From Verrucomicrobiaceae bacterium (GTDB lineage: Bacteria > Verrucomicrobiota > Verrucomicrobiia > Verrucomicrobiales > Akkermansiaceae): a stretch of DNA of 64,000 nucleotides. Position 1 is the stretch's first letter. Each line of letters opens with the position of its first letter. The translations under genes and the position numbers were made by a program. Where the stretch lies: NCBI GenBank assembly GCA_027491155.1, contig JAIXWR010000009.1, positions 62,001 through 126,000 of the forward strand, written 5' to 3'. Below the pieces are notes generated by a model. The model worked only from the letters and a program-made list of their open reading frames with translations. It made no database searches and was not told where the DNA came from. This document shows positions 1,733 through 52,530 of the stretch, piece by piece.

Positions 1733-2125
1733 ATGTCCCTTCCTCCCGAATTCCTTTCGACCGTGTTCCTTCCTGTCGAAGCGGCGGATTCCCTGCCTGC
1801 CTCCTTCGCCATCATCACGGCATCGAATCCGGAAGGCGTGACGGCGGACCAAGTCCTTAATGAGATCGCCGACGAAGTGCTCCGCCGCGAGCTTGAAGAG
1901 CTCGGGCTCTCCCCGATCCGCGCCACCGGCTGCTCGCCCGATCTTTCACACCGGGAGCCCGGCTGGGCGGTCCCGGTATCCAAGGTGGAAGCGGTCGCCC
2001 TCGGCCGCCGTCACCGGCAGCTCGCGGTTTGGATGGTGCGGAACGACCAGCTCGACCTTGTCGATTGCGCGACCGGAGAGGAGATCCGGATCGGGAGCTT
2101 TTCGAGCCGGATCGTCGCCGGCTGA
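1733..2125 (+). CDS. DUF3293 family protein
   Basis: This is a 130-residue soluble protein with no signal peptide or membrane segment. It contains the ASFAIITASNPEG opening and a central SPIRATGCSPD stretch followed by HREPGWAV. A late region (ALGRRHRQLAVWMV) resembles the DUF3293 family, whose function is unknown. The ATG at 1733 sits 5 bp after the esterase stop. A frame extension to 1715 overlaps the esterase end and is less likely. Its place behind a secreted esterase suggests co-transcription, but no functional link can be drawn. Confidence 0.75.
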   Translation: MSLPPEFLSTVFLPVEAADSLPASFAIITASNPEGVTADQVLNEIADEVLRRELEELGLSPIRATGCSPDLSHREPGWAVPVSKVEAVALGRRHRQLAVWMVRNDQLDLVDCATGEEIRIGSFSSRIVAG

Positions 2126-2222
2126 ACTGCCCGAGGACGGCATTCCGCCTGCTCTGGTGACGGATCCGCCCCGGAAACGCCGGTTTGCAAATCGACGCGA
2201 TCCGTGGAGAATCGCCCCGCCC

Positions 2223-9251: not shown

Positions 9252-9462
9252 GCGTGGTCATGCTTCGGAAGGGCATCACGAGACCCGAGCGAGTTCCGGG
9301 TGTCCAAAGGAATTCCGTTAACCATTGCCCTACCCGGGGAATGGAAGCGGGACCAAACCCAAGCCGCGCGGCCAATGCCCGCCTAACCGAATCCATGGCA
9401 GGAAGCACCGGAACGCTCCGTAGGCAGTTTGAGCGACGACCGCAACCCGCTCGACCTATCTC

Positions 9463-16421: not shown

Positions 16422-16538
16422 GCGTTGGTGTCTTTGCAAAACTACACCCGCCCGGCGGTGCAATCCGACAGGAAATCTTCGCCCCGATTCCGCGATTGCG
16501 AGAATGACTTCCGTCGCGACAACGGTAATGTCCGCCCC

Positions 16539-19515: not shown

Positions 19516-19696
19516 GTTGAGGCCCTGAAATTCTTTTGTCGATCCGCGGATGAGGGGTATTCTCGGCCCGATCCGCCCAAGTGATCTGCCGCCCGGCAAC
19601 ACCAAACCCTCCTGCCTCCATCCCGACCCACCGATTCCTTACACGGACCCGATCTGCCCGGAGAAGCCCTGTTGCCCCCGCATCACTGCCAGAACC

Positions 19697-34319: not shown

Positions 34320-34418
34320 CAAGCAGAGGCCCGGCCAGCCCCGGAGGTTCCTCGTTGCGGGATCGATCAGAGTCAGCCCGAGTGAAGCCACGCGATTCTT
34401 CAGCCCTCCTATCCGGCT

Positions 34419-36455: not shown

Positions 36456-36876
36456 GGCGGTTGATTGGATCGTAACCAAAAGTAATCCGAAGTCTCCCGG
36501 CGACAATAGGTGAAGGACGGATCCGGGGTCAATCGGGCGTTCCGATGGCTCTCGAGGCGTGCTGCTGATTGCGTTTTGAAGGCATTCCCAGGTGCGGGAA
36601 GTGCCCTCGGATTGATGATTCCAAGGGAGCACGGCCGGTTAACGGAAATCGGTGGGTAGCCGAAGAACCAGGCTTTCCCGGAGCCGGACCTTGATGGTCG
36701 GGCGGAATCTGGGACAGTGGCCTCAGCAGAGTTTCAACTCCCCTCTCATAGCAGCAAGCAAGCGACCAGAAATCCTCCTCTTCAGCCGTTGTCTCATGCC
36801 ACCGACCTGGAACTCAGCAAGCTCCCCACCCTGCCGCCCTCGCGACTTTTTCCGCGATCGTCTCGAAGGACGAGTC
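36456..36876. other. Divergent intergenic region between the GH30 and phytase-like genes
   Basis: This 421-bp gap separates two divergently transcribed genes and should hold both promoters. Both genes have open-frame extensions into it, but neither adds a recognisable domain. An 11-base phrase, GGTTAACGGAA (36637-36647), also occurs on the opposite strand upstream of the sulfatase at 9463. Otherwise I see no RNA gene, terminator or repeat in it. Confidence 0.5.
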
Positions 36877-38295: not shown

Positions 38296-38387
38296 TGACC
38301 GCCTCTTTGCCCTTTGCCGGGGCCGGTGCATCCCCGAACTGCGGGATTCGGCCTTCGCTTCCTCATCCCTGTTGGTAGCTTCGGCCC

Positions 38388-38858
38388 ATGGAGAAACCAA
38401 CCATCGTGATCAGACCGGCGGGTGCGGGCGATGTCGGGACGATTGCGGAATTCAATGTCGCCCTGTGCCGCGAAACCGAGGGACGCGAACTGGATCCCGC
38501 GACGGTCACGGAAGGCGTGCGGCGCTTTGTTTCCGAACCGGCGAGGGGCCGCTACTTTGTCGCGCTGATCGGGGCCGAAGTGGCGGGACAAACGGCACAT
38601 ACCTTCGAGTGGAGCGACTGGCGAAACGGCGAGATCTGGTGGATCCAGAGCGTTTATGTGCATCCTCGCCATCGAGGCAAAGGAGTGTTCCGGGCACTCC
38701 TCGCCCGCGTCCGGGAGCTGGGAGAACAGGATCCCGAATGCTGCGGGATCCGGCTCTACATGGAGCGCGACAACAGGACGGCGCGTCAGAGTTATCTGAG
38801 TCTCGGCTTCAGGGAAACGGGCTACGAGGTGCTGGAGCTGCTGTTCGCGGGGGAATGA
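38388..38858 (+). CDS. GNAT family N-acetyltransferase
   Basis: This is a 156-residue cytoplasmic protein with a complete GNAT fold. The N-terminus IVIRPAGAGDVGTIAEFN is followed by the central beta strands (WWIQSVYVHP) and the acetyl-CoA pyrophosphate-binding loop RHRGKGVFRALL. The final LYMERDNRTARQSYLSLGF is the usual motif 3. It transfers an acetyl group from acetyl-CoA to an unknown amine. It stands alone between the phytase-like esterase and a convergent sulfatase, with no visible substrate partner. Confidence 0.9.
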   Translation: MEKPTIVIRPAGAGDVGTIAEFNVALCRETEGRELDPATVTEGVRRFVSEPARGRYFVALIGAEVAGQTAHTFEWSDWRNGEIWWIQSVYVHPRHRGKGVFRALLARVRELGEQDPECCGIRLYMERDNRTARQSYLSLGFRETGYEVLELLFAGE

Positions 38859-38930
38859 CTCAATGGCGGCATTGCCAAAGAAGCCCGTCTTTCCCCGATC
38901 AGGAAATACTCGTGCTTGGTGGACCGGGAG

Positions 38931-41900
38931 TCAGTTCCGGGTGACCCGGGCACGGAGGAAGAGACGTGACAGGGCTCCGCTGGCAGTAGCGGTGACGGTC
39001 GTGTTGCCTTGGGACGAACCGGGCACGATGTTCACCGTCGGGCCGCCGGGCGGTCCGGCGATGCCATTTCCGGGATACCAGTTCACCATGTCGGTGGACC
39101 ATTCGTAGGCGCCTGTCAGATCGGCCGGTGCCCGGGGATTGCGCGGATGACGGAAGGTGGTGGTCAGGCCATTGGTGGTGACTTCCACCAGGCCCGGATT
39201 GGAATAGCGCGGGTCGGTGCCGAACCAGGCTTCGACGCCGTTGGACAGTCCGTCGCCGTCGGGATCGAGATCGAAGCCGCGGCTGGCGGGAGCGATGGCA
39301 AGCGCGGCATCGCCGATCCATAAGTCGTAGTCGTTGGGCTGGGGCGAGTACCAGTTGACGATCTCCATGGTCAGCTCGTTGACGAGCTGCGGGTTGCCGG
39401 CGGCGATGTTGTTCGTCTCGTGCGGATCGACCGGAGTGGCGCCGTTGTAGAGGCGGTAAAGTTCCTTGGTGCCGGAGGTGTTGAGGATGAGCTTCCAGCC
39501 GTTGCGCACCGCCCAGCGGTTCTCCAGCGACTCCGTGGGGTCGCTGAGGGTGAGGATTTCCACATCGTGATCCGAACCGCAGATCGTCCCGCGAGCGGCG
39601 ACGGCAGCGGGATCGAGCAGGTTGATGCCCTGCATTTCCGGAGGCACCGGCAGACCGAGCGCGTGGTGAACGGTCGGCGCCATGTCCACCATGTGGACGG
39701 GAGTGCGGATGATCTGCGGTTCGATCGGGCCGCCCGGCTTGATGCGGTCCGGCCAGCGGACGATGATCGGGGTGCGGGCACCGCTGTCATACGGCGAGGT
39801 TTTCCCATCCGTGTTGGGAGTGTTGAACTGGCGACCGTTGTCGCAAATGAACATGACGATGGTGTTCTCCGCGATGCCCTTGGTGTCGAGATGGTCGAGG
39901 AGCGCACCGACTCCGCCGTCGAGGCGCTCGATGTTCGCGTAGAAATTCGCATCGGTGGAGTTCAGGCCGAGGGCGGTGTATTGGGCAAGCAGTCCGGCAG
40001 GAGGATCGAAAGGATCGTGCGGAAGATACGGGGAATACCAGAGGAAGAACGGCTGGTCCGCGGCGACCTGGGTGTTGATGAAGTCGGTCGCGGTCTTGAT
40101 GGTGTTGGCGTAAGGGATCGGGTGGGCCGGCGCGGCGATGCCGTTCACATAATCGACCCGGCCGGTCATCAGTCCCCAGTCGCCCTGGCGGGCGCGGATG
40201 TAACTGGGCGCGCTTCCGGCCCATTGGGGCGGCCTGGTGGAAAGGGCGATGCTGTCCCGGGTGTCGCCGAGGGTGAAGCCGCCGTTCGCGAAGTCGCCTT
40301 CCCACCACTTTCCGGTCTGGAAGCTGGTGTAGCCGAGCTGGTTGGCGAGGGTGCGGGTCAGCGGGTTGAACGAGAGAATGCGGTTCTCGAGGGGGGTGTC
40401 GTCGATCCGCGCGGCTTGCCCCTGCCCTCTCGCGCTGACGAGGTCGTTGCCAACGATCCAGTGCTGATGGAGGTGGGTTCCGGTGATGATCGACATCAGG
40501 GTCGGGCGGCAGACCGGAGCGGTATAGCCGTGGGTGAAGGCGAGGCCTTCGTCGGCGAGGCGGTCGATCGCGGGAGTCTTGGCGAACTGCGGAATGTCCG
40601 TGTTCGACCGGGTTTTCATGTTGATGGCCGCCTGGTCCACGTTGGCCCGCCGCATGAAGCTGTAGTCATACCAGGATTGGTCGTCGGCGAGCATGAAGAT
40701 CACGTTCGGGGTGGTGGCCCGGGTCTGGAAATTCCAGGTGACGTCGTCATTCGAGGGAATGCCGGCGAAGCCAACGTCGCTGAAATTCTTCACCGCCCCC
40801 GCGGCAATCTGGACCGCGTAGTTCTTCCCGGCAGCGAGGGGAATGGACGGGTCGATGGTGAGCTGGTTGCCGCTGATGGTCACCCGTGCGGTGTCGGTGA
40901 CGGGGAGGACCTGCGTGGTGGAGCCATCGGTGAGATCCTTGAGGGTGATGTTGCCGCTGCCGGCGACGATGGCGTCATCGAAGGTAGCGACGATGTTGGC
41001 GGCACGCGAAACGTTGGTCGCATTGTCGAGCGGCGACCTGAGCGTGATGGCCGGCGCTGTTAGATCCTGCGCGGCGGTGCTGAAGGTCCAGGTGGCATCG
41101 TTGTTGATGCCAGGGAAGGCGTTGGCGGGGCTGGCGGAGTCTTCGACCGCATCCGCACTGATCCGCACGCCGAAGCTGGTGCCGAATGGCAGGTTGGCCG
41201 TGGGGTTGATGACGAGATTGCGGCCGGAGATAGTGGCTTGGGCGTTGGGCAGGGTGAGGACAAGGTCGGAGTTGCCCGAAGGATCGCCAAGGTTGCGGAG
41301 GGTGATCGTGCCGCCGGCTTTGAGCACGATGTCCTCGCTGAATGTCGCGACGAGGTTGGTGCCTGGATAGACGCCCGGTGTGGCGTCCGGCACCTTGGCG
41401 AGGATCGCTGGGGCAATCGAGTCCCCCCCATTGTAGTTCTGGGCTCCAGAGTTGCGCGCGTGGTTGATCTGGGAGGGATTCAGCACCCCGCTGAAGACCG
41501 CCACGTCGTCGATCCGTCCGTCGAAGGGATTCGGCGATCCGGTCTGCGGGTTGTTGCCGATGTTGAAAACCGTGGTCGCGGCGGTGTGGGTCGTTCGGGT
41601 CGGGTTGGTGCCAACCGGGGTGCCATCGAGGTAAAGGGTGGTGCCGTTGGAGCTGTGCACCGTGTAGGCGACATGGTGCCAGGCGCCGGTCGAGATCGAG
41701 GCGGCAGGCGACTCGGTGATGGAGTTCCCTTGACCGCCATTGGGCAGGAGGTTGAGGAACAGGATCCGGTCGCTGCCATCGGCGGCCTTGCCCATGGTGA
41801 AGGTCTCGCCGCTGGTTCCGGAGTTTTGTCCACCGGCGATGTAGCCGCGGTTGCCATTGGCCCCGTCCCAGAAGACCCATGCCATGAGGGTGTAGTCGGT

Positions 41901-42845
41901 GTCGGGGAGGATGACGTTTCCGGCGGTTGGAGTGGAGATGAAGTCATCCACGCCATCGAGACTCACGGCCTGGCCGAAGCGACCCGGGGCATAGCCCGCG
42001 CCGCCCTGGGCCGTGCCGTTTGCCGTGCCGACCGAGTCGGCGGCGTTGCCATCCAGCTTCCAGTGGTGGATCAGCGCCGTGGCAACCGGAGCGAGCGAGG
42101 TCAGCTTGAAGCTCTCGACGGCGCCGCCGGTGCCGGAGGTCGGGTGAGTGCTGGAAGCAGCGATGCCGACCGAGGTGTAGTTGGCGGCCGCATGGGGAAC
42201 GGTCGTCGTGGCACCGACCAGCGTGTAGCTGCCCGAGGCGGGGAGCTTGGCATACCAGGTGGCGGTCCAGGCACCGGTGCCGCCGGTCGTGTCGAGCACG
42301 ATGCGCAGGTCGATGGCACCGCCTTCCAGATCGCCAAGGGTGGAGTCGAGCCAGTCCACGGGAGCCGCCGCGGCGAGACCGCGCTGGATCTTGTTGCCGT
42401 TGGTCGCCAGCGGAGCGGGAGTGGCACCCCGGAAAATCATCCAAGTCGCGCCGGTCACGGTTGGACCGACAAAGCGGTCACTCGTCGTACTGGTGGCCGA
42501 CTGGCCGTTCGCGAAGCCAAAGCCGAGCCAGTCGGTGTCGCCGGTGACGCCCGAGAAAGAGACATCTAGCGTGTAGATGAACCCGTTGGCGGGCACGAAC
42601 GGCAGCGTCATGCTGCCCTGGTTGCTGCTGGTCGGTCGATCCACCGAACCATCGGCGTTGAAGACCGTCGAGGCGGTCCAGGTTTCGCTGCCGGGACGGA
42701 CATCGGGAGGCAGCGTGCCGATGTTGCCGCTGCTCCCGCTGAAGTCGTCGGAGTAAATCGTCGTCTGGGCGGTAGCGAGGGAAATGCCAAGCCCGGCAAG
42801 GATAGCTAGAGCTGCGGGAAGGACTCGGGACGGGTTGGGGACCAT
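38931..42845 (-). CDS. Giant secreted sulfatase with LamG and Ig-like domains and a non-canonical active-site motif
   Basis: This is a 1304-residue exported protein. Signal peptide MVPNPSRVLPAALAILAGLG is followed by a roughly 210-residue N-terminal module (about residues 28-245), a LamG/concanavalin-like domain and two SbsA-like Ig domains (NLVATFSEDI; NIVATFDDAI). The sulfatase domain begins NVIFMLADDQSWYDYSF near residue 715. At the active site is VCRPTLMSIITG with Cys779, where the usual CxPSR arginine is a leucine. The C-terminus (DPDGDGLSNGVEAWFG ... RLFLRARVTRN) resembles the shared terminal module. The N-terminal module is related to the insert in the FecR anti-sigma at 50129 and to the N-terminus of the SGNH hydrolase. 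Its substrate is presumably a sulfated polysaccharide. Confidence 0.88.
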   Translation of the reverse strand: MVPNPSRVLPAALAILAGLGISLATAQTTIYSDDFSGSSGNIGTLPPDVRPGSETWTASTVFNADGSVDRPTSSNQGSMTLPFVPANGFIYTLDVSFSGVTGDTDWLGFGFANGQSATSTTSDRFVGPTVTGATWMIFRGATPAPLATNGNKIQRGLAAAAPVDWLDSTLGDLEGGAIDLRIVLDTTGGTGAWTATWYAKLPASGSYTLVGATTTVPHAAANYTSVGIAASSTHPTSGTGGAVESFKLTSLAPVATALIHHWKLDGNAADSVGTANGTAQGGAGYAPGRFGQAVSLDGVDDFISTPTAGNVILPDTDYTLMAWVFWDGANGNRGYIAGGQNSGTSGETFTMGKAADGSDRILFLNLLPNGGQGNSITESPAASISTGAWHHVAYTVHSSNGTTLYLDGTPVGTNPTRTTHTAATTVFNIGNNPQTGSPNPFDGRIDDVAVFSGVLNPSQINHARNSGAQNYNGGDSIAPAILAKVPDATPGVYPGTNLVATFSEDIVLKAGGTITLRNLGDPSGNSDLVLTLPNAQATISGRNLVINPTANLPFGTSFGVRISADAVEDSASPANAFPGINNDATWTFSTAAQDLTAPAITLRSPLDNATNVSRAANIVATFDDAIVAGSGNITLKDLTDGSTTQVLPVTDTARVTISGNQLTIDPSIPLAAGKNYAVQIAAGAVKNFSDVGFAGIPSNDDVTWNFQTRATTPNVIFMLADDQSWYDYSFMRRANVDQAAINMKTRSNTDIPQFAKTPAIDRLADEGLAFTHGYTAPVCRPTLMSIITGTHLHQHWIVGNDLVSARGQGQAARIDDTPLENRILSFNPLTRTLANQLGYTSFQTGKWWEGDFANGGFTLGDTRDSIALSTRPPQWAGSAPSYIRARQGDWGLMTGRVDYVNGIAAPAHPIPYANTIKTATDFINTQVAADQPFFLWYSPYLPHDPFDPPAGLLAQYTALGLNSTDANFYANIERLDGGVGALLDHLDTKGIAENTIVMFICDNGRQFNTPNTDGKTSPYDSGARTPIIVRWPDRIKPGGPIEPQIIRTPVHMVDMAPTVHHALGLPVPPEMQGINLLDPAAVAARGTICGSDHDVEILTLSDPTESLENRWAVRNGWKLILNTSGTKELYRLYNGATPVDPHETNNIAAGNPQLVNELTMEIVNWYSPQPNDYDLWIGDAALAIAPASRGFDLDPDGDGLSNGVEAWFGTDPRYSNPGLVEVTTNGLTTTFRHPRNPRAPADLTGAYEWSTDMVNWYPGNGIAGPPGGPTVNIVPGSSQGNTTVTATASGALSRLFLRARVTRN

Positions 42846-42979
42846 GACGAAGATCTAGAAAAGCGTGGATGATCGAAGCGAACGAGGCAAGACCACAAGA
42901 AAGGCGGCGGACATCGCGTCCGCCGCCAGAAAACCAACCCTTTCCCTTCGGACCGGCGGCTCGTTCGAAAAGACCAAAG

Positions 42980-44536
42980 TCAGCGACGGCGGCGAAGCAG
43001 GGCGAGCAATCCAAGGCCACCAAGCAGAGCAGCACGTGGCTCGGGGACGGCGGTGAAGTTCAGTATGAGGTCGTTGGAATTGGCAGTTAAGTTGAAACTG
43101 CCACCACCCAGAGCGTTCTGGAAACCGCCGGTGCCATTGTTCGCGCCCACATTCAGCAGGAAGTCTGCGGCGTCGAAACCGGTGATGCCGCCCGTGGTGG
43201 TGAGGATCGTCCAGGACTGGTTGATGGCATTGTTGAAGTTGAGGGCGTTGCCATTGACGTCCGGACCGGTGCTCGCGAGGCTCCACAGGTTGACCGAGAA
43301 GCCGCCCGAGGTGAGGCTGTTCAGATCGAGCGTCCCGGTGATCTGGATCTGATCGAAACCGGTGCCGGCCGCTGCAGTGGCATCGAGCATCTGGAAATTG
43401 TAGTCGGCACCGTTCACCCATGTCTGGCTACCGGTCGTCAAAATGCCCGGGCTGCTGCCAGGGGAGAGTGTCCCGGCGACGGTCATGGCACCCGTCACCG
43501 TGCCACCTCCGGTCAGCGTTTGACCAGAACCGAGGCTGTAGCCGCCCGTCACCCCGGACACGTCCAAAGTCGTGGAAGCGCCCACGATGATGCTGGTGCT
43601 GGCGATGGCCCCGGATCCGCTCAAGGCCAGGGTGCCGCCGCTGATGGTGGTCGCACCGCTGTAGGTGTTTGCTGCCGACAGCGTGGCGGTTCCGGCGCCC
43701 GACTTCGTCAAAGCGCCCGTCCCGCCCAGCACCGCGCTGACAGTTCCCTCGTTCGTCAAAGAGTAGGAAGATCCGGTGAGCACCGCCGCTCCGGTCCGGC
43801 TGATCGTCCCGCTCGAAAGAGTGACGGCCCCCACGGTGTCGGTCTCACCCACCCGGTAGTTGCCCCCGTCCACGGTCACGGATCCGGTGTCCGCCATCGT
43901 GGTGTTCACGATGAGCAGTCCGGCCGAAACCTTGGTGCCCCCGGTGTAGGTATTCCCGGTATCGGACCCGCCGGAAATGCCGCTCAACGTCAGAGTCCCG
44001 GCGCCCGTCTTGGTGAGTTCCTTGGCACTGCCCGCGGTTTCTGCAATCCTTCCATGGACGGTCAATCCACCGGCACCCACGCTCCAGGTTTGGGACGCAG
44101 CCAGATTCACCGGGACCCCGTTGACCGAAGGAGAATTCCTGCCGATCACCACGGCGCCGTCTCCGGTGGTGATCCCGGTACCACCACTCGCGTTGATCGT
44201 CAGAAACCGGTCGGCCGCACTACTGTTCGAGAGCGTAACCGAATTGGTGGGGTTGGTGAAGGTGAGGGAATTGACCGGAAGGCTGTTGTTGAAGTTAATG
44301 GTGAGCGCCGCGGAAGCGGCATTGCCAATGCCCAGGATGGTGGCGTTCGTTGCCCCCCCTGGAACCCCGCTGGGGGTCCAGTTGCCGGCCGTGTTCCAGA
44401 CGCCGGCGGAAGCACCCGTCCAGGACGATTGAGCCATGAGATCGGAAGGGGCGGCGAAGAGACAAATCGCAATCGTTGCCAAGCCTCCGGACCTCAGACC
44501 CGGAAGGACGGCGGGCTTTGAACTTGTCACCGGCAT
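42980..44536 (-). CDS. PEP-CTERM protein with autotransporter-associated beta-strand repeats
   Basis: This is an exported beta-helical protein of about 518 residues. A signal peptide (LATIAICLFAAPSDLMAQ) is followed by beta-strand repeats (KTGAGTLTLSGISGG; KSGAGTATLSAANTYSGATT). The end is a clear PEP-CTERM sorting signal: VPEPRAALLGGLGLLALLRRRR, whose parts are the PEP motif, a hydrophobic helix and an Arg cluster. It should be cleaved by an exosortase and moved to the cell surface or exopolysaccharide. No exosortase is in the window. The frame is open to 44635; the ATG at 44536 starts closer to the hydrophobic core, but the longer start is possible. Confidence 0.85.
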   Translation of the reverse strand: MPVTSSKPAVLPGLRSGGLATIAICLFAAPSDLMAQSSWTGASAGVWNTAGNWTPSGVPGGATNATILGIGNAASAALTINFNNSLPVNSLTFTNPTNSVTLSNSSAADRFLTINASGGTGITTGDGAVVIGRNSPSVNGVPVNLAASQTWSVGAGGLTVHGRIAETAGSAKELTKTGAGTLTLSGISGGSDTGNTYTGGTKVSAGLLIVNTTMADTGSVTVDGGNYRVGETDTVGAVTLSSGTISRTGAAVLTGSSYSLTNEGTVSAVLGGTGALTKSGAGTATLSAANTYSGATTISGGTLALSGSGAIASTSIIVGASTTLDVSGVTGGYSLGSGQTLTGGGTVTGAMTVAGTLSPGSSPGILTTGSQTWVNGADYNFQMLDATAAAGTGFDQIQITGTLDLNSLTSGGFSVNLWSLASTGPDVNGNALNFNNAINQSWTILTTTGGITGFDAADFLLNVGANNGTGGFQNALGGGSFNLTANSNDLILNFTAVPEPRAALLGGLGLLALLRRRR

Positions 44537-44740
44537 CAGGTCTTCGCCCACGATCTGAATTGGCGGACTTTCTTGAAGTTTCGAGGGAAGGCAGTTGAAC
44601 GAAGCTGCGCCGGACGGGTTCTTTTTCACTCTCATGGATTGAATCCGGAAATGGGGTTGGGGGACTCATCAAGGCCAAGCTTCCGAGTGGCAGAGGCAGT
44701 TCAGGAGCATGATGACTTCGCCAAATTCCAACGGGGAGAG

Positions 44741-44754
44741 ATCGGTTAACCGAT
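44741..44754. promoter_or_regulatory. Perfect 14-bp palindrome upstream of the PEP-CTERM gene
   Basis: The sequence ATCGGTTAACCGAT is a perfect palindrome about 200 bp upstream of the PEP-CTERM start and about 90 bp after the SGNH gene's stop. It resembles an operator for a dimeric regulator of the LacI or GntR type. The rest of this roughly 300-bp gap shows no gene. A palindrome of this length is expected by chance a few times in 64 kb, so the call is tentative. Confidence 0.3.
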
Positions 44755-44840
44755 TTCGTGATTTTTTTTGAGCAGACCCTCCCATCGAAGAATCCGCCCC
44801 CACGAAGTCGCGCGGCAAGGCCCTCCCGGCGGTGGACGAT

Positions 44841-46712
44841 TCAGTCCTCCGTCACCTTCACCCGCAGGAAAAGCCGGTCGCACGGGGTGCCAGTAACGAT
44901 GGCCGTCACGGTGGTAATCCCCGGCCCGGGAGTATTGGCCTGGATGGTGAAACCGACGGTGGTGCCGGCACCATCGCTTGCCAGATCGCCGCGGTAGCTT
45001 TGAAGGTCCTTGGACCACTGGTAGGCGGCGGCCAGATCCCCGGCCGGCACGCCCTGCGGGTGGGTGAAGGTGAAGGTGCCTTGGGCGGGATTGACTGTTC
45101 CGACGGCGATGCCCGGCGAGGGCGCGTCCGGTGCGGTGCCGAAGAAGTTCTCGACGCCGTTCTTCACGCCGTCGCCATCGGGGTCGTCCTCGAGGCCGGT
45201 CTGTGCGCCGACCGGCGGGAATCCACGGATCCAATTGGCATAGGTTCCCGCCCCGATTCCCAGCGCCTCGATCCCGTCGAACCAAACCTGTGCCATTTTC
45301 TCATAGCCCGGATTGCTGGGATGATTGATCGCGTTGGAGAAAAGCGACTGATCGATGGAAGTGAGGTCGGCGGGATTGATGAGAAAGGGGGCGTATTGAT
45401 CGACCACCTTGACCTTCCGGCCCAAGGCCTGCTGGCCTGGCACCAGGGTGTCGCGAATCCAGGCGTTGTAGTTCACGACTTCCTGGACATAGGTGTATCG
45501 CGGCATGATCTGCGCGAGGATCAGATGGCAGCCGGGTTTGGTGGTGGTGATGGTATTGACCAGCGCTTGAAGGTCGGCACGGTCGGACTGCTGATAGCCG
45601 TTCGTGCCGATTTTCAGCAGGATGATGTCCGGGTCCTGGCTGGCGAGCCATGAGGAGATTCCCCCGTTGAGGAAAGCCGCGTCCTTTCCGGCATACCCAT
45701 TGTTTCCATCCTGCCCGAGTGCCGCCAGATCGAGCGCGGGCGGCCATGCAGGGTCGGTGGTCCGGGGATCGCGGAACGTCCAGGGTTCGGTGGAATTGCC
45801 GACGAAACGGAAACGGTAGCCTGCACTGGACAGGAGCTTGTAGAGACCGCTGCGATACCCGAATTCAAAGGCACCTCCGGTCCAGTCGGCATTGGTATAG
45901 CCGACGGTGATGGAGTCCCCCATCGGCATGATGCGCAGCGGATTGGGGGTGTCGCCACCCGCCACGCTGAGTTCGAAGGACTGGAAGCGGGCGGTTCCAT
46001 CGGCGTTATAGACCGCGATACCCGCGCTTCCGATGGTGACGGCGTTCAAGTCCGCAACGGAAGCTAGGCGGGTAAATCCTCCCGAACCGTTTCCGACGTG
46101 GTAGGTGGCCGACCAGTTGCCGCTGCCGCCGGTGGTGTCGAGCGTGATCCGGAGGGTCGATGGCGCAGTCGGGTCCTCCACCGTGGTGGGGATGGCATTC
46201 CTGCTCCCCGCGCCACCGGTCAGATTGTAGTGGGCGACCTGATCGTCGGAACCGGAATCTCCAGGCCGGGTCAAGGCCCATACGCCGGCACCGGTGGAGG
46301 AATTGATGTTGCCGGTGAAGCCGGACGTTTCAAAAAAGCCCGCAGCATGGAAGGCGGCTTCGGCGGGGTTGGGAAGCTGGGTGAAGCCCGTGGTGACCGT
46401 CAGGTGATAGACATTCCCGTCCCGAGGGGTGAACGGAAGCGTGGCACTGGCCCGGTTCGCCGCGGAGTTGTAGGCCCCGGATTCCGCAAAAGACCCATCC
46501 GCCTTGAAGGCGCTGGCGGCGGACCAGGAGGCGGAGGCGCTGGTTCCGTATTGGGCGTGCTGGGCACCCGTGGCCCCGGAAGTATCCACAGCCTGGCCGT
46601 TGAGATTGGCGCCGGATAATCCGCCGAAGCCACTGGAGTAAAGAACAACGTCGGCATTGGCCTTCATGACGACCAGCGCGACGAAGGCGATCCGGAGAAG
46701 TTTGAGGGACAT
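44841..46712 (-). CDS. Secreted SGNH/GDSL hydrolase with shared N-terminal module
   Basis: This is a 623-residue exported protein. The signal peptide ends at MKANA; a roughly 230-residue beta-rich module follows, related to the N-terminus of the sulfatase at 38931 and to the insert in the FecR anti-sigma. The SGNH esterase/lipase domain begins at PMGDSITVGY (nucleophile Ser267), with Asn371 in KIGTNGYQQ and His464 in NHPSNPGY. The position three residues before His464, where these enzymes usually carry Asp, is Ala. The C-terminus (DDPDGDGVKNGVENFFG ... RLFLRVKVTED) is the shared terminal module. It probably deacetylates or de-esterifies polysaccharide. The ATG at 46712 starts the signal peptide; the frame extends to 46817. 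Confidence 0.86.
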   Translation of the reverse strand: MSLKLLRIAFVALVVMKANADVVLYSSGFGGLSGANLNGQAVDTSGATGAQHAQYGTSASASWSAASAFKADGSFAESGAYNSAANRASATLPFTPRDGNVYHLTVTTGFTQLPNPAEAAFHAAGFFETSGFTGNINSSTGAGVWALTRPGDSGSDDQVAHYNLTGGAGSRNAIPTTVEDPTAPSTLRITLDTTGGSGNWSATYHVGNGSGGFTRLASVADLNAVTIGSAGIAVYNADGTARFQSFELSVAGGDTPNPLRIMPMGDSITVGYTNADWTGGAFEFGYRSGLYKLLSSAGYRFRFVGNSTEPWTFRDPRTTDPAWPPALDLAALGQDGNNGYAGKDAAFLNGGISSWLASQDPDIILLKIGTNGYQQSDRADLQALVNTITTTKPGCHLILAQIMPRYTYVQEVVNYNAWIRDTLVPGQQALGRKVKVVDQYAPFLINPADLTSIDQSLFSNAINHPSNPGYEKMAQVWFDGIEALGIGAGTYANWIRGFPPVGAQTGLEDDPDGDGVKNGVENFFGTAPDAPSPGIAVGTVNPAQGTFTFTHPQGVPAGDLAAAYQWSKDLQSYRGDLASDGAGTTVGFTIQANTPGPGITTVTAIVTGTPCDRLFLRVKVTED

Positions 46713-46856
46713 CGTCGAAAGGTTCTGGGGCTTTTGATCCGCGCGACGCCGAATGAGTGCGAAAACCCCGGTTCCTGCGCCACTCCAAAAGCCCGACCCG
46801 GCAGACCTCCCCGACAAAGAAGCGGACGCACGGGCGGATGCGCGGTGATGGGGAGA

Positions 46857-49301
46857 TCAGGGAGTGATCACCACCTTGAGCCGTGCGAACTTCCTGGCGT
46901 CCGGAGTTTGAGCCACGGTGAGGGTGACGGTGTCAGTGCCTGGAGCGGGACTGTCCGCATCGACGGTGACACCGGGATTGATGACTCCACCCGTATCGGC
47001 ATCGGGAACGGAGTAGGGCGAGGGCAGGGTGTTCCAGTTCACCAGATCGGTGCTGACTTCGATCGACAGGGAGGTTTTCGGGTCGATGGAGGACCGGTCG
47101 CGCTTGAAGGTGAGGGTCACGCTCGTGCCGTCGGCGTCAATCACCGGCAACTTGGCGAGGTCGCTGGTGGTCGCGAGGCCGCCGAGTACGAACTCCACCG
47201 CGTTGGAGACGCCATCGGCATCGAAGTCATCGTCGGGACCGCCGGTGGGGGCGTTGGCAGCCGCCCATGTGGCATAAGCGGAGCCGCCCGTGGAAGTGAC
47301 GACGAGTTCGAGGCTGTTGCCGTTGGCTTGGAGCTTTCCATTGAAGCCCGGGGCGATGGGAGCGGTGGCGCCGTCCACGGTGCCGGTGAGCCCGCTGCTG
47401 GAAATCAGGGTGTACGTGCCGGCTCCCAGGCCGCCCAGGTTGGTGACGGCGAGGTCGTCCAGCGCGAGGGTGCCCAGCGCCAGTGAGCCGCCGACAACGA
47501 TCCGGTCATTGGTGCCGGCGAGGGCATCGAGTTCGAAGTTGAGTTTGCCCGCGCCGGACGCCATGGCCGAGATGTCGAGGTTGCCGGTGATATTGAGCGT
47601 TCCTGCCGTGACTCCGGGGGAGAGATTTCCCGCCGCAGCGACGGTGACGTTTCCGCCCACCGTGCCGGTGCCGCCGAGTTCTCCGCCATTCACGGTGACG
47701 GCACTGGACGCTGTCGTGGTGCCCGTGGAAGAAAGGATGAGCGAGCCTTCATTGACGGTGGTGGCGCCGGTGTAGGTGTTGATCCCGGAGAGCGTCATCG
47801 TGCCCGGGCCTGTTTTGATGAGCCTGCCCACGTTGAGAGGATTGCCGAAGTTGGCCAGCACGCCCGTGACGTTCAGGTCGCTGCCGCTGACCGCGTCAGC
47901 CACATTGAAGATCGTGCCAGCGGTGAGCAGGCCGATTTGCCCGTTGGTGCCGCTCGTGCTGATCGTCGAAGCCGCGCTGCCGCCGACAGTGACCTCCCCG
48001 TTGAGGGTGAAAGAAGGGAACAATCCGCCGCCGCCGAATGAACTGAGGGTGCCGCCATTGAGTTCCACCGGACCCAGCATGTTGAAGATATTGCCCGTGT
48101 TCCGGATCGTTCCGCCATTGGCGATGAGCTTGAGTTTCGGTGTGGAACCGCCCCCTCCCATGACGTTCGCAGCCGTGAAATTCAAGGTGGCGCCGCTGCC
48201 AACGGTAACCGTGCGGCCCGTCGCTTGCGCATTGCCAAGCGCTCCCGCCACAGGGTTGTTGGTCGTATTTGACACGTTCGCGTGCAGCGAGCCCGCCGTG
48301 ATCGAGATGTTACCGGTGAAAGTGTTGAGACCGGAGAGGATGAGTCGGGAATTCGCGCTGTTCTGGGTGACTCCGGTGACACTGGTGCCGATTACGGAGC
48401 TGATGGTCGTGTCGATGTTGCCCACGGTGGTGGTACTGCCGGTGCCGCTGTTGGTGATGCTGCCCGTCATGTCGATCGAGCCTGTCTGAAAGAGGATCCT
48501 GGAGGAGTTGGCCGCCGTGTTGGCATTGCTCTGGAGGACGAGATTTCCCGTTCCGGTCACCCCGCCGCCAAAGGTCAGGTTGCTCCCGCCCGCATTGCTG
48601 GAAACCACGGTGAGGTTCCGGCCCAAAGTGATCGGGCCGTTCAGGGTTTGATTCCAGCCGATGATGTTGATGGAGGCGGTGCCGGTTCCGACGACAGAGA
48701 TGGGATTCGTGGACGTGAAGTTCCCCCCACGGAAGGTCAAGGCGGCGGCGGCACCGGTATTGGCGTCGTCACCAATCGTGACGCTGCCGGTGCCCAGGAA
48801 ATTGCCACCGGTGCCCGTGTTGAAATTCCTTACGGTTCCGGCCTTGATGACCAGTCCTCCCGAGAACGTATTCGTTCCTTTGAGGGACAAGGTACCACCG
48901 CCGGATTTCTGCATGCCGTCACTGCCTGCAACGATGCTTTCAATGGTCAGCTCGCGGCTTGGGACCACTTCGATCCCCGGCACACCACTCGCGCGGTCGA
49001 GCGTGAGGGTATCCCCGGTGAGGGTGAAGTTATGGCTCGTGTCCGAAGCGGTGATGTTGCCGATCGTCCGATTGCCGTTCAGCGTGATGGTGGTGGCCAC
49101 CGTGATCACATTGCCGAATGTGGCCGTGAAATCCGCACCATTGGCGATGAGTCCGTCCGTCCACTTGGTTCCATCCGTCCAGTCGCCGGCGGAGTCTCCG
49201 AGCCACGAGCCGTCCTGGTCTTGAGCGTGGGACTGGGAAATGGCGAACAGCGAACTGGCGGCGAGGATGAGGCGTTGGCGGAGGGAGGAATTCATTTTCA
49301 A
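46857..49301 (-). CDS. Autotransporter-associated beta-strand-repeat protein with shared C-terminal module
   Basis: This is an 814-residue exported protein with signal peptide MKMNSSLRQRLILAASSLFAISQSHA, split here by its two possible Met starts. The body is a long beta-helical array with phrases such as KSGGGTLSLKGTNTFSGGL and KTGPGTMTLSGINTYTGATT. The C-terminus (DDDFDADGVSNAVEFVLGG ... RKFARLKVVITP) is nearly the same as that of the giant protein at 19697. It lacks a PEP-CTERM signal and an autotransporter barrel, so attachment would rely on the C-terminal module or simple secretion. It is divergent from the ECF sigma gene across 297 bp and is the first gene of the minus-strand cluster. 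Confidence 0.85.
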   Translation of the reverse strand: MKMNSSLRQRLILAASSLFAISQSHAQDQDGSWLGDSAGDWTDGTKWTDGLIANGADFTATFGNVITVATTITLNGNRTIGNITASDTSHNFTLTGDTLTLDRASGVPGIEVVPSRELTIESIVAGSDGMQKSGGGTLSLKGTNTFSGGLVIKAGTVRNFNTGTGGNFLGTGSVTIGDDANTGAAAALTFRGGNFTSTNPISVVGTGTASINIIGWNQTLNGPITLGRNLTVVSSNAGGSNLTFGGGVTGTGNLVLQSNANTAANSSRILFQTGSIDMTGSITNSGTGSTTTVGNIDTTISSVIGTSVTGVTQNSANSRLILSGLNTFTGNISITAGSLHANVSNTTNNPVAGALGNAQATGRTVTVGSGATLNFTAANVMGGGGSTPKLKLIANGGTIRNTGNIFNMLGPVELNGGTLSSFGGGGLFPSFTLNGEVTVGGSAASTISTSGTNGQIGLLTAGTIFNVADAVSGSDLNVTGVLANFGNPLNVGRLIKTGPGTMTLSGINTYTGATTVNEGSLILSSTGTTTASSAVTVNGGELGGTGTVGGNVTVAAAGNLSPGVTAGTLNITGNLDISAMASGAGKLNFELDALAGTNDRIVVGGSLALGTLALDDLAVTNLGGLGAGTYTLISSSGLTGTVDGATAPIAPGFNGKLQANGNSLELVVTSTGGSAYATWAAANAPTGGPDDDFDADGVSNAVEFVLGGLATTSDLAKLPVIDADGTSVTLTFKRDRSSIDPKTSLSIEVSTDLVNWNTLPSPYSVPDADTGGVINPGVTVDADSPAPGTDTVTLTVAQTPDARKFARLKVVITP

Positions 49302-49598
49302 GGTGGTCTGACTGGTTGTGATATCGCGGGAGCAGCGGGGACTCCGCGTGGTCCGGAAAGAGGCGAGCGAGGGATCGATTCAACGACGCGGATGATCACA
49401 GACCCTCGTCACTCGACCCTCCGCCGAAGTGATTCCAACGGAGACTCGTCGGTTACTCTGAATCTTCGGATGTACTGGTTCCGGCCGGAAAACTTGGCGA
49501 TCCCTGTCCGGGGTCTCGATGTCTTTCCCCAAGGATCCGGATTTTCCGCCTTACCATCCGGCAACTGGCGGAATAGGGTGGTGAGGAGCATGGCAACC

Positions 49599-50132
49599 AT
49601 GAAGCCCGACCCCGAACAGACCTTCGTGCAACTGGTGGTGAACCACCAGCCGGCTTTGCGTGCTTTTGTACTGTCGTTGCTTCCAGGCAGCCCGGAGGTG
49701 GACGATGTGATCCAGGAAACCAATGCCGAGATCTGGGTGAAGCGCGGGGATTTCAGGATCGGGACGAATTTCAAGTCGTGGATGTTCTCGGTCGCAAAGT
49801 TCAAGGTGATGTCGGTCTGGCGCGACCACCAGCGGCAGAAGGTCTGGGCCGTGCCCGAGGAGACACTGGCGATGCTGGTCGAGCGAATCGAAGCCGGTGC
49901 GCTCGCCGACACGGATTCGCGCCACGAGGCATTGCGCATTTGCCTCGACCGCCTGCGTGCCGAGGACCGGATGCTGATCCTCAACCGCTACATCGCAGAC
50001 CAGAACCTCGACCGGCTGGCACGCGAGTCGGGCAGGAAGAAAGACAGCTTGAAGGTTTCGCTTCACCGCATCCGCGCGGTGTTGAAGGCATGCATGAATC
50101 GGAGAATCCAACCCGGACAGGAGTTCGCATGA
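49599..50132 (+). CDS. ECF sigma factor (Rhodopirellula/Verrucomicrobium family)
   Basis: This is a 177-residue ECF sigma factor. Region 2 is visible as VDDVIQETNAEIWVKRGDF with FKSWMFSVAKFKVMS. Region 4 is LAEDR-type: LRAEDRMLILNRYIADQNL followed by the helix-turn-helix RLARESGRKKDSLKVSLHR. This is the family typical of Planctomycetes and Verrucomicrobia that pairs with FecR-domain anti-sigmas. The ATG at 49599 has GAGGAG ten bases upstream; an ATG at 49590 is too close to that site. A longer frame runs upstream antisense to the beta-strand-repeat gene and is rejected. Its stop overlaps the anti-sigma start in ATGA. Confidence 0.93.
   Translation: MKPDPEQTFVQLVVNHQPALRAFVLSLLPGSPEVDDVIQETNAEIWVKRGDFRIGTNFKSWMFSVAKFKVMSVWRDHQRQKVWAVPEETLAMLVERIEAGALADTDSRHEALRICLDRLRAEDRMLILNRYIADQNLDRLARESGRKKDSLKVSLHRIRAVLKACMNRRIQPGQEFA
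50119..50123 (+). promoter_or_regulatory. Shine-Dalgarno site for the anti-sigma gene
   Basis: AGGAG lies five bases before the ATG at 50129, inside the end of the sigma gene. It is one of few clear Shine-Dalgarno sites in the window, and it supports this start together with the ATGA overlap. Confidence 0.7.
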
Positions 50133-52369
50133 GCGGATACGAGACCAAGGACGGCAGGCTCGATCTCACGAAGTTCGAGCTGGCGCTGCAGGAACTGGAA
50201 GACGGAACGCTCGACCCGGTCGAACGCGACGATCTGATGGCTCTCATCGCCCGTTCACCCGCGGCGCAGCGAACCTATCTGAGCCACTTCGAGATTTCCT
50301 CGATGCTTCAGGCGGAGGCCGCGACCCATGCCGAGCAGGGAGATCTGCCGAAGATCGCCCGCTTTGATCCGCCCTCACGCTTGTTCCGCCGCTCGCTCCT
50401 GGCAGCGGCAGCGGTGCTGGTGCTTGCTGCGGCGGTCGCGGCACTCATCCGGGTCGCCCGGCCCCAGATACCGGAGCTTGTCCTCGCTGCGGCCCCGGAC
50501 ACCCGCTGGTCGGTGACCGGCAAGTCGAGGGACGCCGAAGACCAAATGACCAGCGTCCGCGAAGGCTCCACGTTGCGGGTGACTTCCGGCACCTTGGAGC
50601 TGCGTCTCGAATCCGGTGCCAGGATGGTGGTCCAAGGACCAGCCCACGTCTCCTTTCCGAAGCTGGAAGGACCGGTGCTGAAGAGCGGATGGCTGTGGAT
50701 CGACTCGGCCGGATCCGGCGAAAAGTTCGAACTGACCACGCCGGACCTGCGGGTCCGCAACCTCGGAACGCGTTTCGGCGTGAGGGTTCCCGCCGAAGGC
50801 CCCGCGGAGGTCCACCTCATCCAAGGGAAGCTCGAGGTTTCCTCCGAATCGGCCCCCGGAAGAGTCCTTGAACTCGTCCCTGAAGAGAGCGGACTCGCCA
50901 TTCACCCCCACGGCGAGCCGACCCCGGTGACGCTGGCTCGCGATCCATTCCCGGAGATCGCCGGTTTGCTGGCAGCGCCCGCGAGTTATCCCAACACGGT
51001 GCGCGGCCAGAATCCGGTGTCCTACTGGCGGCTCGATGACGCGCCCGGTTCGCCCTTGCAGAACGAAGTGACCGGCGAAGCCGCTGGGCGGACCAGGCCG
51101 GGAGTATCAATTGATGCCGGCCCCCGCGCGGAAGATGAGTTCGCCGGTTTCGGCACATCAAACCAAGCCGCACGACTGGACGGCAAGACAGCCGATTCCG
51201 GGCTCTCGCTGGGTGCCGCGCCGCCGCGTCATCAGGGGGTTCTTTTTCACGATGCTTTCGATGGCGAGGGCCCACTTCACCAGCGCACACCTCAAGTCAC
51301 CCGCGATGAGATCCGATGGGTGTCGGCACACCACTTCCGGGCGAACGGCTGGATCTCCTCCGGCACTGCCAGCGCAACGCTTCCCTTTCAGCCGGTGGAC
51401 GGGGTGGTTTACACCTTGGACGGATCCTTTCGCGGCATCAGCTCGCCGTTTGGAGACTCCCCCTGGGTGGCGCTCGGTTTTGCCAGCGGCCAGTCGACCG
51501 GCACCAGGAGGGGAGATCGATTTGTCGCGGGCACGGTCACAGGCCGGGCGTGGATGCTGTTCCGTGGCACGGGTCCGGAGCTTGAAAACACAACCCTGGA
51601 CGTGGGCAGTTCCAACCAGAACCCATGGGAGAACTGGAGCCGCGGAGTCGGCGGGGACATCGACATGCGCATCGTCCTCGACACCACCCGAGGGTATGGG
51701 AACTGGACCGCCACATGGTTCGCGCGCCGCCCCGGCACCGGTCCCTTCTTGAAAGTCGGATCCACCCGAACCCTGCCCAACGAGGCGATCCGCTCGGTCG
51801 GCATCGCCGTGTCAGGGAGCAAGATCCAGGCGCGGATCACGAACTTCGCGCTCCGTGCCGATGCGGAAGTGGAGCACCAGGCGTCCGGCGTCCGCGCCGA
51901 CGGACCCGCGAGGCTCAACCAGAGCGCAGGCACCGTCTCTTGCTGGGTGCGTCGCGAACCCGGAAGCGGACCAAGGACCGTCCTGTGGTCCGCGGGACGG
52001 GATGCGGCGGACGACTCCATTCACCTCCGCCTTGAGAGCAACGAACGGATCGGATTCTTCATGGAGAACGGGCGTTACGACGTTCTGCTCACTTCCGAAG
52101 AGACGCTTGACGAAGACAGCTGGCACCACCTTGTCGCGAGCTGGAGTTCGTCAACGGTGGACCTCTTCCTCGACGGCCGGCGTGTCGCATGGCTGCGCGA
52201 ACCCCTTGGCCTTGCGCCCGACATCCTGCCCGACTTCCGTGTGGGCGGGGGCCAGAGCCTGAGCGGCACCCAGCCCTTCGCAGGGCACATCGATGAAGTC
52301 GCGGTCTGGAACCGGTCGCTCACGCCCGTCGAGGTCGAACAACAGTTCCGCTCGGCGCGGGGTGAGTGA
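50129..52369 (+). CDS. FecR-domain anti-sigma factor with LamG ectodomain and an inserted module
   Basis: This is a 746-residue membrane protein. The cytoplasmic N-terminus (residues 1-86) would hold the ECF sigma factor. A membrane helix at about 87-108 and a FecR domain at roughly 135-260 (VREGSTLRVTSGTLELRLES) follow. An ectodomain begins with a LamG start (PVSYWRLDD, AARLDG). Between about residues 366 and 585 lies an extra module (GVLFHDAFDG ... WTATWFARRPG) that interrupts the LamG part before it resumes with GTVSCWVRRE and FAGHIDEVAVWNRSL. That module is related to the N-termini of the sulfatase at 38931 and the SGNH hydrolase at 44841. The protein should sense an outside ligand and release the sigma factor. 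Confidence 0.88.
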   Translation: MSGYETKDGRLDLTKFELALQELEDGTLDPVERDDLMALIARSPAAQRTYLSHFEISSMLQAEAATHAEQGDLPKIARFDPPSRLFRRSLLAAAAVLVLAAAVAALIRVARPQIPELVLAAAPDTRWSVTGKSRDAEDQMTSVREGSTLRVTSGTLELRLESGARMVVQGPAHVSFPKLEGPVLKSGWLWIDSAGSGEKFELTTPDLRVRNLGTRFGVRVPAEGPAEVHLIQGKLEVSSESAPGRVLELVPEESGLAIHPHGEPTPVTLARDPFPEIAGLLAAPASYPNTVRGQNPVSYWRLDDAPGSPLQNEVTGEAAGRTRPGVSIDAGPRAEDEFAGFGTSNQAARLDGKTADSGLSLGAAPPRHQGVLFHDAFDGEGPLHQRTPQVTRDEIRWVSAHHFRANGWISSGTASATLPFQPVDGVVYTLDGSFRGISSPFGDSPWVALGFASGQSTGTRRGDRFVAGTVTGRAWMLFRGTGPELENTTLDVGSSNQNPWENWSRGVGGDIDMRIVLDTTRGYGNWTATWFARRPGTGPFLKVGSTRTLPNEAIRSVGIAVSGSKIQARITNFALRADAEVEHQASGVRADGPARLNQSAGTVSCWVRREPGSGPRTVLWSAGRDAADDSIHLRLESNERIGFFMENGRYDVLLTSEETLDEDSWHHLVASWSSSTVDLFLDGRRVAWLREPLGLAPDILPDFRVGGGQSLSGTQPFAGHIDEVAVWNRSLTPVEVEQQFRSARGE

Positions 52370-52530
52370 CATTCACTGGTTCTCCCGCTCCCGGGACGCA
52401 ATCCGTGCGCGAGCTGCTTCAGGGCTCAACTCTGTTGCCTCCACCTCCTCCGGTTACGGTTCTGTAACAATCCGCGCCGCGAGGCGAAATGGCGGATCGC
52501 TAGGCTCGCAAGCCTTCGCGCCTTGCCTCC

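Follow-up and report, generated by a model that had tools for sequence, protein, structure and literature searches.

The stretch of DNA analysed here, hereafter the window (64,000 nucleotides; positions 62,001 to 126,000 of contig JAIXWR010000009.1, assembly GCA_027491155.1, Verrucomicrobiaceae bacterium), carries a gene pair encoding an extracytoplasmic function (ECF)-type sigma factor and a FecR/LamG-type anti-sigma factor whose LamG region is interrupted by a lectin-like module, together with a divergent gene cluster in which a secreted sulfatase and an SGNH hydrolase bear homologous N-terminal modules. The gene pair, the two enzymes and the three modules are located as follows.

49590..50132, plus strand: ECF-type sigma factor (TIGR02989; Sigma70_r2)
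50129..52369, plus strand: FecR/LamG-type anti-sigma factor with lectin-like insert, 746 residues (stop-free open frame; Laminin_G_3; weak FecR match)
50129..50455, plus strand: N-terminal, presumably cytoplasmic part and single transmembrane helix of the anti-sigma factor, residues ~1-109 (read by eye)
51236..51859, plus strand: lectin-like inserted module, residues 370-577 (homology, alignment, AlphaFold model, Foldseek)
51887..52336, plus strand: C-terminal main part of the interrupted LamG (PF13385, 587-736; alignment with insert-less relatives)
38931..42845, minus strand: secreted sulfatase with module, LamG, Big_5, sulfatase and C-terminal domain (domain scan)
42096..42764, minus strand: lectin-like module of the sulfatase (BLASTP, hhalign)
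44841..46817, minus strand: SGNH/GDSL hydrolase with N-terminal module, start probably at 46712 (PF13472, 33.0 bits vs 32.9)
45960..46649, minus strand: lectin-like module of the SGNH hydrolase (BLASTP, hhalign)

The sigma factor scores 125 bits against TIGR02989 (cut-off 124.55) and matches Sigma70_r2 with an E-value of 4.5e-12, and its gene lies directly upstream of the anti-sigma gene, overlapping its start at position 50129. In a Pfam scan of the anti-sigma factor, Laminin_G_3 was matched at residues 587-736 (E 1e-21) and no RsgI domain was found, the partner sigma factor matching ECF models; a hydrophobic stretch at about residues 88-109 was judged by eye to be the apparent transmembrane helix. 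This membrane anti-sigma factor probably switches on a set of sugar-degrading genes.

The shared module

A preliminary description of this locus had proposed that an insert interrupts the LamG region of the anti-sigma factor and that this insert is homologous to the N-terminal modules of the sulfatase and the SGNH hydrolase, and both proposals were borne out. The module is ~208 residues long, and its limits at residues 370-577 are slightly tighter than the earlier 366-585. When the cut-out modules were compared by BLASTP, the insert was 42% identical to the sulfatase module over 205 columns (E 2e-42) and 32% identical to the SGNH module over 168 columns (E 5e-13), and the two enzyme modules were 29% identical to each other over 196 columns (E 5e-8). 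Local scores, controlled with 500 shuffles per module pair, were 363 for insert and sulfatase (shuffled mean 41, maximum 70), 168 for insert and SGNH hydrolase (mean 40, maximum 69) and 162 for the two enzymes (mean 49, maximum 92); the best shuffle stayed below half of the observed score for both pairs that include the insert, but not for the sulfatase/SGNH pair. A profile-profile comparison, named beforehand as a test of the homology and performed by hhalign with profiles built with orthologous modules, gave a probability of 100% and an E-value of 2.5e-45 for the anti-sigma and sulfatase modules, and 98.7% and 4e-16 for the anti-sigma and SGNH modules. The shuffle controls and the profile-profile E-values therefore place the homology far beyond chance. 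The coordinates first given for the sulfatase (38931-42845) and the SGNH hydrolase (44841 to ~46712 or 46817) also hold, and orthologs with the module were found for both enzymes, at L057 (genome G355) and L058 (G327) for the sulfatase and at L156 and L161 for the SGNH hydrolase (G, C and L numbers are handles of this survey).

Insertion history

A profile of the part of the anti-sigma factor that precedes the insert (370 positions) was searched in 260 genomes of the family. Five anti-sigma factors, those of the window, of L054 (in G372), of G029, of G014 (Haloferula rosea) and of G235, match to the end of the profile and bear the insert, whereas ten relatives scoring above 200 bits (five in G002, two in G017 and one each in G235, G329 and G250) stop matching at profile position 358-359, have frames of 503-599 residues and in the alignment are all without the insert; this insert-less set is confined to the ten relatives above that score, weaker matches lying outside the alignment. 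At E 1e-60, a search of 386 genomes of the order returned these fifteen proteins and no others. In the alignment of the five and the ten, LamG runs on directly across the gap in the insert-less proteins, and the insertion is clean. The model of the whole ectodomain, built from four sequences, is poor (mean predicted local distance difference test score (pLDDT) 43.6), which counts against the reading, so that the interruption of LamG rests on this alignment.

In a tree of the host proteins from which the insert columns were left out, the five insert-bearers form one clade (support 100/99). A tree of 32 modules likewise unites the five inserts (92/93; recovered in 94% of 200 bootstrap trees). 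It places the sulfatase modules from the window, L057 and L058 together (100/100), to the exclusion of the fourth sulfatase module, from G369, and joins the window's SGNH module with those of G146 and G327 (96/95). Since the insert-bearers form one clade, one insertion in their common ancestor is the simplest reading, and the sequences suggest that the module entered LamG a single time. The insert of G014 forms a long branch, and the inserts of G014 and G235 score equally well or better against some modules from outside the anti-sigma factors; in these two lineages the insert may have been replaced later.

The physical closeness of the genes and the phrases that their products share would also fit a recent recombination event in which the module of a neighbouring enzyme was copied into the anti-sigma factor. 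However, the inserts of five species form one clade, the enzyme modules of the window fall into other well-supported groups, and the insert is 66-67% identical to those of L054 and G029, as against 42% and 32% to the modules of the neighbouring enzymes. Recent copying is disfavoured by both the module and the host-protein trees, and we regard it as highly improbable.

Fold and distribution of the module family

Among 19 modules searched against Pfam, only one was matched (E 0.048), by a family of an unrelated kind, and no lectin family was hit; in NCBIfam, at most one of the 19 was matched per family, at E 0.04 or worse and again by families of unrelated kind, and a sequence search of the PDB with the modules gave nothing better than E 0.95. 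An AlphaFold model computed on 14 rows is a confident beta-sandwich (pLDDT 87.5; predicted template modelling score 0.88), for which Foldseek returned 160 matches in the PDB at E <= 0.001. The 50 listed of these 160 comprise legume lectins, ERGIC-53, Emp46p, calreticulin and one "carbohydrate-binding domain" (4gky), with E-values of 7e-7 to 1.3e-5, template modelling scores by query length of 0.41-0.58 and identities of 9-15%. The inserted module is thus predicted to be a ConA-like beta-sandwich with the L-type-lectin fold, and it represents an unnamed new sequence family.

The module was detected in 32 of 386 sampled genomes of the order (E 1e-4) and in 15 of 387 genomes of the phylum (E 1e-6), two samples that overlap. 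Its carriers comprise sulfatases, SGNH hydrolases, BNR_4 proteins, Big_5 proteins, an FAD oxidoreductase and a fucosidase-like protein, as well as stand-alone module proteins whose C-termini are PEP-CTERM-like. Carriers of the BNR_4, SGNH and sulfatase kinds were assigned by domain scan, and the stand-alone proteins were named by eye from their C-termini. The genome of the window contains four copies, namely the insert, those of the sulfatase and the SGNH hydrolase, and a fourth within a BNR_4 protein of contig C45. At L038, a stand-alone PEP-CTERM-like protein carries a module nearly identical to that of the adjacent BNR_4 enzyme, and at L039 the corresponding pair is very close, which points to recent duplication or conversion at these two loci. 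L056, a contig labelled as belonging to an Acidimicrobiales metagenome-assembled genome, also carries two lectin-like modules together with Big_5-like stretches that closely resemble their verrucomicrobial counterparts; it is possibly mis-binned or transferred.

Candidate promoter and regulon

The remaining genes of the divergent cluster, a hairpin within it, and a more distant gene are the following.

46857..49301, minus strand: PATR beta-strand-repeat secreted protein 1, first gene of the divergent unit (PF12951, TIGR02601)
42980..44635, minus strand: PATR beta-strand-repeat protein 2 (PF12951; PEP-CTERM-like C-terminus below cut-off)
42903..42927, minus strand: terminator-like hairpin between PATR protein 2 and the sulfatase (11-pair stem)
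34419-36632, minus strand: CBM_4_9 gene, real start probably near 36455 (GH30 C-terminal match below cut-off)

A two-block motif, TTACN-N14-GGWAT, was seen by eye and confirmed by pattern search before the sigma genes of all five insert-bearing systems, with the same spacing throughout. By hand count, 14-21 bases separate its end from the likely ATG (window 49590, L054 1337, L042 9705, L048 11150, L145 8526); at three of the five loci GTG or TTG codons lie nearer to the motif. With a position weight matrix (PWM) derived from the other four sigma sites, the window's own site ranks first on both strands of the 64 kb. With a PWM of eight sites from outside the window, the top five positions in the window were 36641, 44748, 49551, 9319 and 49455, all at no less than 15.4 bits (>=15.4), the sixth reaching 11.6 bits, and all five lie within ~190 bases upstream of a likely start. 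These predicted sites are listed below.

49551..49574, plus strand: predicted sigma promoter TTACC-N14-GGAAT before the sigma gene (rank 1, PWM of the other four sigma sites)
49432..49455, minus strand: predicted sigma promoter TAACC-N14-GGAAT before PATR protein 1 (rank 5, eight-site PWM)
44725..44748, minus strand: predicted sigma promoter TAACC-N14-GGAAT before PATR protein 2 (rank 2, eight-site PWM)
36618..36641, minus strand: predicted sigma promoter before the CBM_4_9 gene (rank 1, eight-site PWM)
9319..9342, plus strand: predicted sigma promoter before another sulfatase gene, 9463-10872 (rank 4, eight-site PWM)

The product of the second sulfatase gene matches PF00884 with an E-value of 1e-62; the site before it fits the strict pattern only, and not a looser one with C or T before GGWAT. 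In the 5.73-Mb genome, TWACC-N14-GGAAT occurs eight times, five of these inside the window, and the reversed pattern does not occur; in 40 simulated windows the mean count was 0.025. Two of the other genomic matches, on contigs C28 and C35, sit inside open reading frames and are probably due to chance. The last, on contig C14 (G000:C14:51976-51999, L177), lies between frames before the gene for a Big_5 protein, divergent from a SelO gene, and this Big_5 gene is a possible unlinked member of the regulon.

In four insert-bearing systems, TWACC-N14-GGAAT also precedes neighbouring genes: besides the window, H. rosea has such sites in front of a LamG/Big_5 gene and of a PEP-CTERM-like gene, G235 in front of a PEP-CTERM-like gene, and L054 in front of a PATR-like gene. 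G029 shows no more than a weaker site (TAACT), ~400 bases before an M60-like/Big_5 gene. Beyond a third motif site in H. rosea (L189) lie a sulfatase-like frame of 116 residues, probably truncated (1396-1746), and an alpha-L-rhamnosidase gene (1789-4173). Among insert-less paralogs, CAACY-N14-GGTAT was found before the sigma gene in two of the nine checked.

Several observations must be set against the motif and the regulon drawn from it. The motif was first spotted by eye, and the pattern was widened from TTAC to TWACC after the divergent genes had been inspected; when the PWM was derived from the sigma sites alone, 49455 and 44748 were absent from its top 25. In seven of the nine insert-less paralogs no such pattern precedes the sigma gene. 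The looser TWACH form gave 4 to 48 matches per genome in 13 genomes, including matches beyond the sigma loci (among the matches listed, 20 in G029 and 17 in G235, for example), and the reversed control gave 1 to 38, so that most single matches elsewhere are probably due to chance. Promoters for the divergent cluster had been expected near 49301, 46712, 44536 and 42845; sites were found before 49301 and 44536, and the pattern search of the window gave none before the SGNH gene (46712) or the sulfatase gene (42845). Because no motif precedes either of these two genes, their expression would need read-through from PATR1 and PATR2, and since a terminator-like hairpin precedes the sulfatase gene, its simple co-transcription is disfavoured. 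Ordinary sigma-70 promoters were uninformative, three being found within 34000-52500 against 2.2 expected.

The earlier proposal that the divergent cluster is the regulon of this sigma factor stands in part: because the conserved two-block motif precedes the sigma gene, 49301 and 44536, the cluster probably belongs to the regulon. We infer that the sigma factor uses TWACC-N14-GGAAT, and a small polysaccharide-degradation regulon in the window has good computational support. Synteny also speaks for this reading: the broken SGNH gene and the motif-bearing PATR-like gene adjoin the sigma gene in L054, and a related sulfatase (54% identity) lies beyond it in H. rosea.

Three further features of the window were recorded. 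A C-terminal domain of ~130 residues recurs at the ends of the SGNH hydrolase (44841-45275, residues ~515-658), the sulfatase and PATR protein 1; Pfam has no separate domain for it, a query containing it was matched in 15 of 15 genomes, mostly over that part, and it is possibly a sorting or anchoring signal of secreted proteins. An overlong frame at 14703-16688 (minus strand) contains a second sigma-70-family protein, and 19550-29557 (plus strand) encodes a protein of 3335 residues with DUF6288, cadherin-like, PASTA, PATR and Ig-like domains.

Module sharing in related genomes

The shared module had initially been interpreted as a specific pairing of receptor and enzymes, a view that the comparison with related genomes weakens in several ways. 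The insert scores 363 against the sulfatase module of the cluster, but 400 against the C45 BNR_4 module of the same genome, 418 against the sulfatase module of G369 and 422 against the BNR_4 module of G268, and the inserts form a clade of their own. Module-bearing enzymes stand beside the sensor at one of the five insert-bearing loci, that of the window. In H. rosea, G029 and G235, six-frame genome searches found no other module near the anti-sigma gene; all statements of this kind rest on such searches, genes outside the window being greedy open frames that can miss genes (e.g., one L044 module gene). The H. rosea genome contains one module, G029 and G235 contain others elsewhere, and G372 gave one module match in all.

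At E 1e-60, close relatives of the sulfatase were not found in G372, G029 or G235; only H. rosea has one, 54% identical and located beside or beyond the sigma gene, and it is without the module. Of 14 other genomes searched, G327 and G146 alone yielded close relatives of the whole SGNH catalytic part, and none of the other four insert-bearing genomes has an intact one. L054, a 4.8-kb contig, has a broken SGNH gene and the motif-bearing PATR-like gene beside the sigma gene; this SGNH remnant and, on the other side, a transposase-like fragment (DDE_3) occupy 947-1396 and 4145-4774 (both minus strand). A different accessory module links three proteins encoded in the divergent, motif-bearing cluster of H. 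rosea (pairwise identities 68%, 49% and 42%) and is absent from the anti-sigma factor of that species and from the window. This second module, ~190-220 residues long, occurs at L059 (1238-7951) in a PEP-CTERM-like protein of 256 residues, a sulfatase of 987 residues and a Big_5/LamG protein of 907 residues.

The first module occurs fairly widely among secreted proteins of this group, and its sharing between sensor and enzymes may therefore be chance; in related species the same sensor adjoins genes that do not carry it, so that such sharing is no general rule. Accessory modules can recur among the proteins of one cluster, and a sensor that shares one with them was seen once. The sharing is true of this genome and is not a conserved trait of the system; the special sensor-enzyme link is accordingly weakened, and it seems doubtful that sensor and enzymes bind the same sugar.

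These findings bear on an explanation in which the module is a generic beta-sandwich for attachment to the surface or matrix, acquired long ago, so that its co-occurrence in the enzymes is a coincidence and the regulon is real without the insert being a pairing factor. Such a role would agree with its presence in stand-alone PEP-CTERM-like, BNR_4, sulfatase, SGNH, FAD oxidoreductase and fucosidase-like proteins, with an insert no closer to the cluster enzymes than to other modules, and with the second module of the H. rosea cluster. It would also agree with the sulfatases or SGNH hydrolases that bear the module in G327, G355, G369 and G146 (81-97% complete), where no close sigma relative was found at E 1e-40. 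On the other hand, the predicted fold is that of sugar-binding lectins, the insert is present in all five members of the clade, and enzymes lie near motif sites only where the sigma factor is present, no motif being found near the module enzymes of L057, L058, L156, L157 and L161 in the stretches covered (148 bases upstream for L161); on balance we consider a purely generic module somewhat unlikely.

The insert might instead sense the enzymes rather than a sugar, if modules bound each other or competed for a surface ligand and thereby provided feedback. A module-module or common-anchor role is conceivable in view of the stand-alone copies in G002 and G017 that are nearly identical or very close to the module of the adjacent enzyme, yet in three of the five insert-bearing genomes the locus has no further module nearby, and sensing of this kind appears improbable.

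A putative polysaccharide sensor

The explanation that we favour, and consider rather probable, is that the ECF sigma factor and the FecR-like anti-sigma factor form a one-component surface sensor of a (probably sulfated) polysaccharide that governs a small regulon. The anti-sigma factor would hold the sigma factor at the membrane, and its outer part would consist of a FecR domain and a LamG domain, a loop of which would have received the L-type-lectin-like domain a single time, in the common ancestor of the five systems. Binding of the ligand by the inserted lectin, perhaps together with LamG, may alter the anti-sigma factor or expose it to proteolysis and so free the sigma factor, which would then transcribe its own operon and the regulon from TWACC-N14-GGAAT promoters; both sugar binding and proteolytic release are here inferred. 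The putative regulon would include secreted sulfatases, the SGNH esterase, the CBM_4_9 protein and the PATR surface proteins. Because the H. rosea neighbourhood encodes a GH106-type and another alpha-L-rhamnosidase besides the sulfatase, a sulfated, rhamnose-containing polymer would fit as the ligand and may be the sugar sensed.

Two domain assignments weaken this proposal. The FecR match (PF04773, residues 184-235) reaches 20.0 bits, below the 24-bit Pfam cut-off, a score that rises to 24.6 bits when the frame is scanned with its neighbours and is 22.5, 26.4 and 25.8 bits in orthologs; and the root-mean-square deviations of the 50 Foldseek matches listed are high (5.4-11.9).

Relation to known systems and implications

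With FecI-FecR, the system of the window shares an ECF sigma factor and a FecR-like anti-sigma factor in one operon and, as judged by eye, a single apparent transmembrane helix. In the classical FecI-FecR system the signal comes from an outer-membrane receptor, whereas here the ectodomain of the anti-sigma factor itself carries LamG and the lectin-like insert. L-type lectins (legume lectins, ERGIC-53, calreticulin) have the same predicted fold, and none of the 19 modules matches their sequence families. RsiV of Bacillus subtilis is an anti-sigma factor that acts as the receptor of lysozyme, ligand binding triggering its cleavage (PMC4183432, in excerpt); the anti-sigma factor is itself the sensor in both cases, but the ligand of RsiV is a protein and the organism is another.

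The closest precedent is provided by the RsgI proteins of Clostridium thermocellum: the GH10 module of RsgI6 is 57% identical to Xyn10D, whose promoter is activated by sigma-I6, and other RsgI proteins carry CBM3 or PA14 modules (PMC4711584, in excerpt). Both systems have a membrane anti-sigma factor, an outward module of carbohydrate-binding type (here predicted), and control over secreted polysaccharide-degrading enzymes and their own operon (here predicted). They differ in that the sigma factor of the window is of the ECF type (TIGR02989) and the anti-sigma factor is FecR-like, in phylum and module family, and in the position of the module, which lies inside another lectin-like domain rather than at the C-terminus. 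The relation between sensor and enzyme modules is present in the window, where control of the enzymes is only predicted, and three of the four other insert-bearing loci have no module nearby.

That an anti-sigma factor can carry an outer module akin to modules of the enzymes under its control is a principle already described for C. thermocellum RsgI (PMC4711584, in excerpt). Searches for sigma/anti-sigma control of sulfatases in Verrucomicrobiota, and for FecR/LamG/sigma systems in Verrucomicrobia or Planctomycetes, found no such description in a coverage that excludes most subscription journals, the papers returned being on other subjects such as Zobellia and North Sea bacterioplankton, and the words "sigma" and "FecR" do not occur in the examined portion of a 2026 paper on glycan use by Akkermansiaceae. 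The fuller interpretation, in which a FecR-type anti-sigma factor is a direct glycan receptor by virtue of an L-type-lectin domain inside LamG, detects sulfated polysaccharide without a separate receptor and controls a dispersed regulon of sulfatase, esterase and surface-protein genes through a TWACC-N14-GGAAT promoter, and in which the insert-less paralogs sense other ligands through LamG alone, is put forward tentatively, at slightly short of an even chance.

As far as the literature searched shows, how Verrucomicrobiota detect sulfated polysaccharides and switch on their sulfatases has not been described. The present analysis offers candidates for the receptor and the promoter, together with a short list of target genes, by which this question becomes directly testable, and Haloferula rosea KCTC 22201, a named strain, possesses the same system. 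A further outcome is the definition of an unnamed family of lectin-like domains, for which insert-bearing and insert-less relatives are available for comparison. If the proposed mechanism is true, Verrucomicrobiota would have a receptor-free, one-component means of detecting sulfated polysaccharide.

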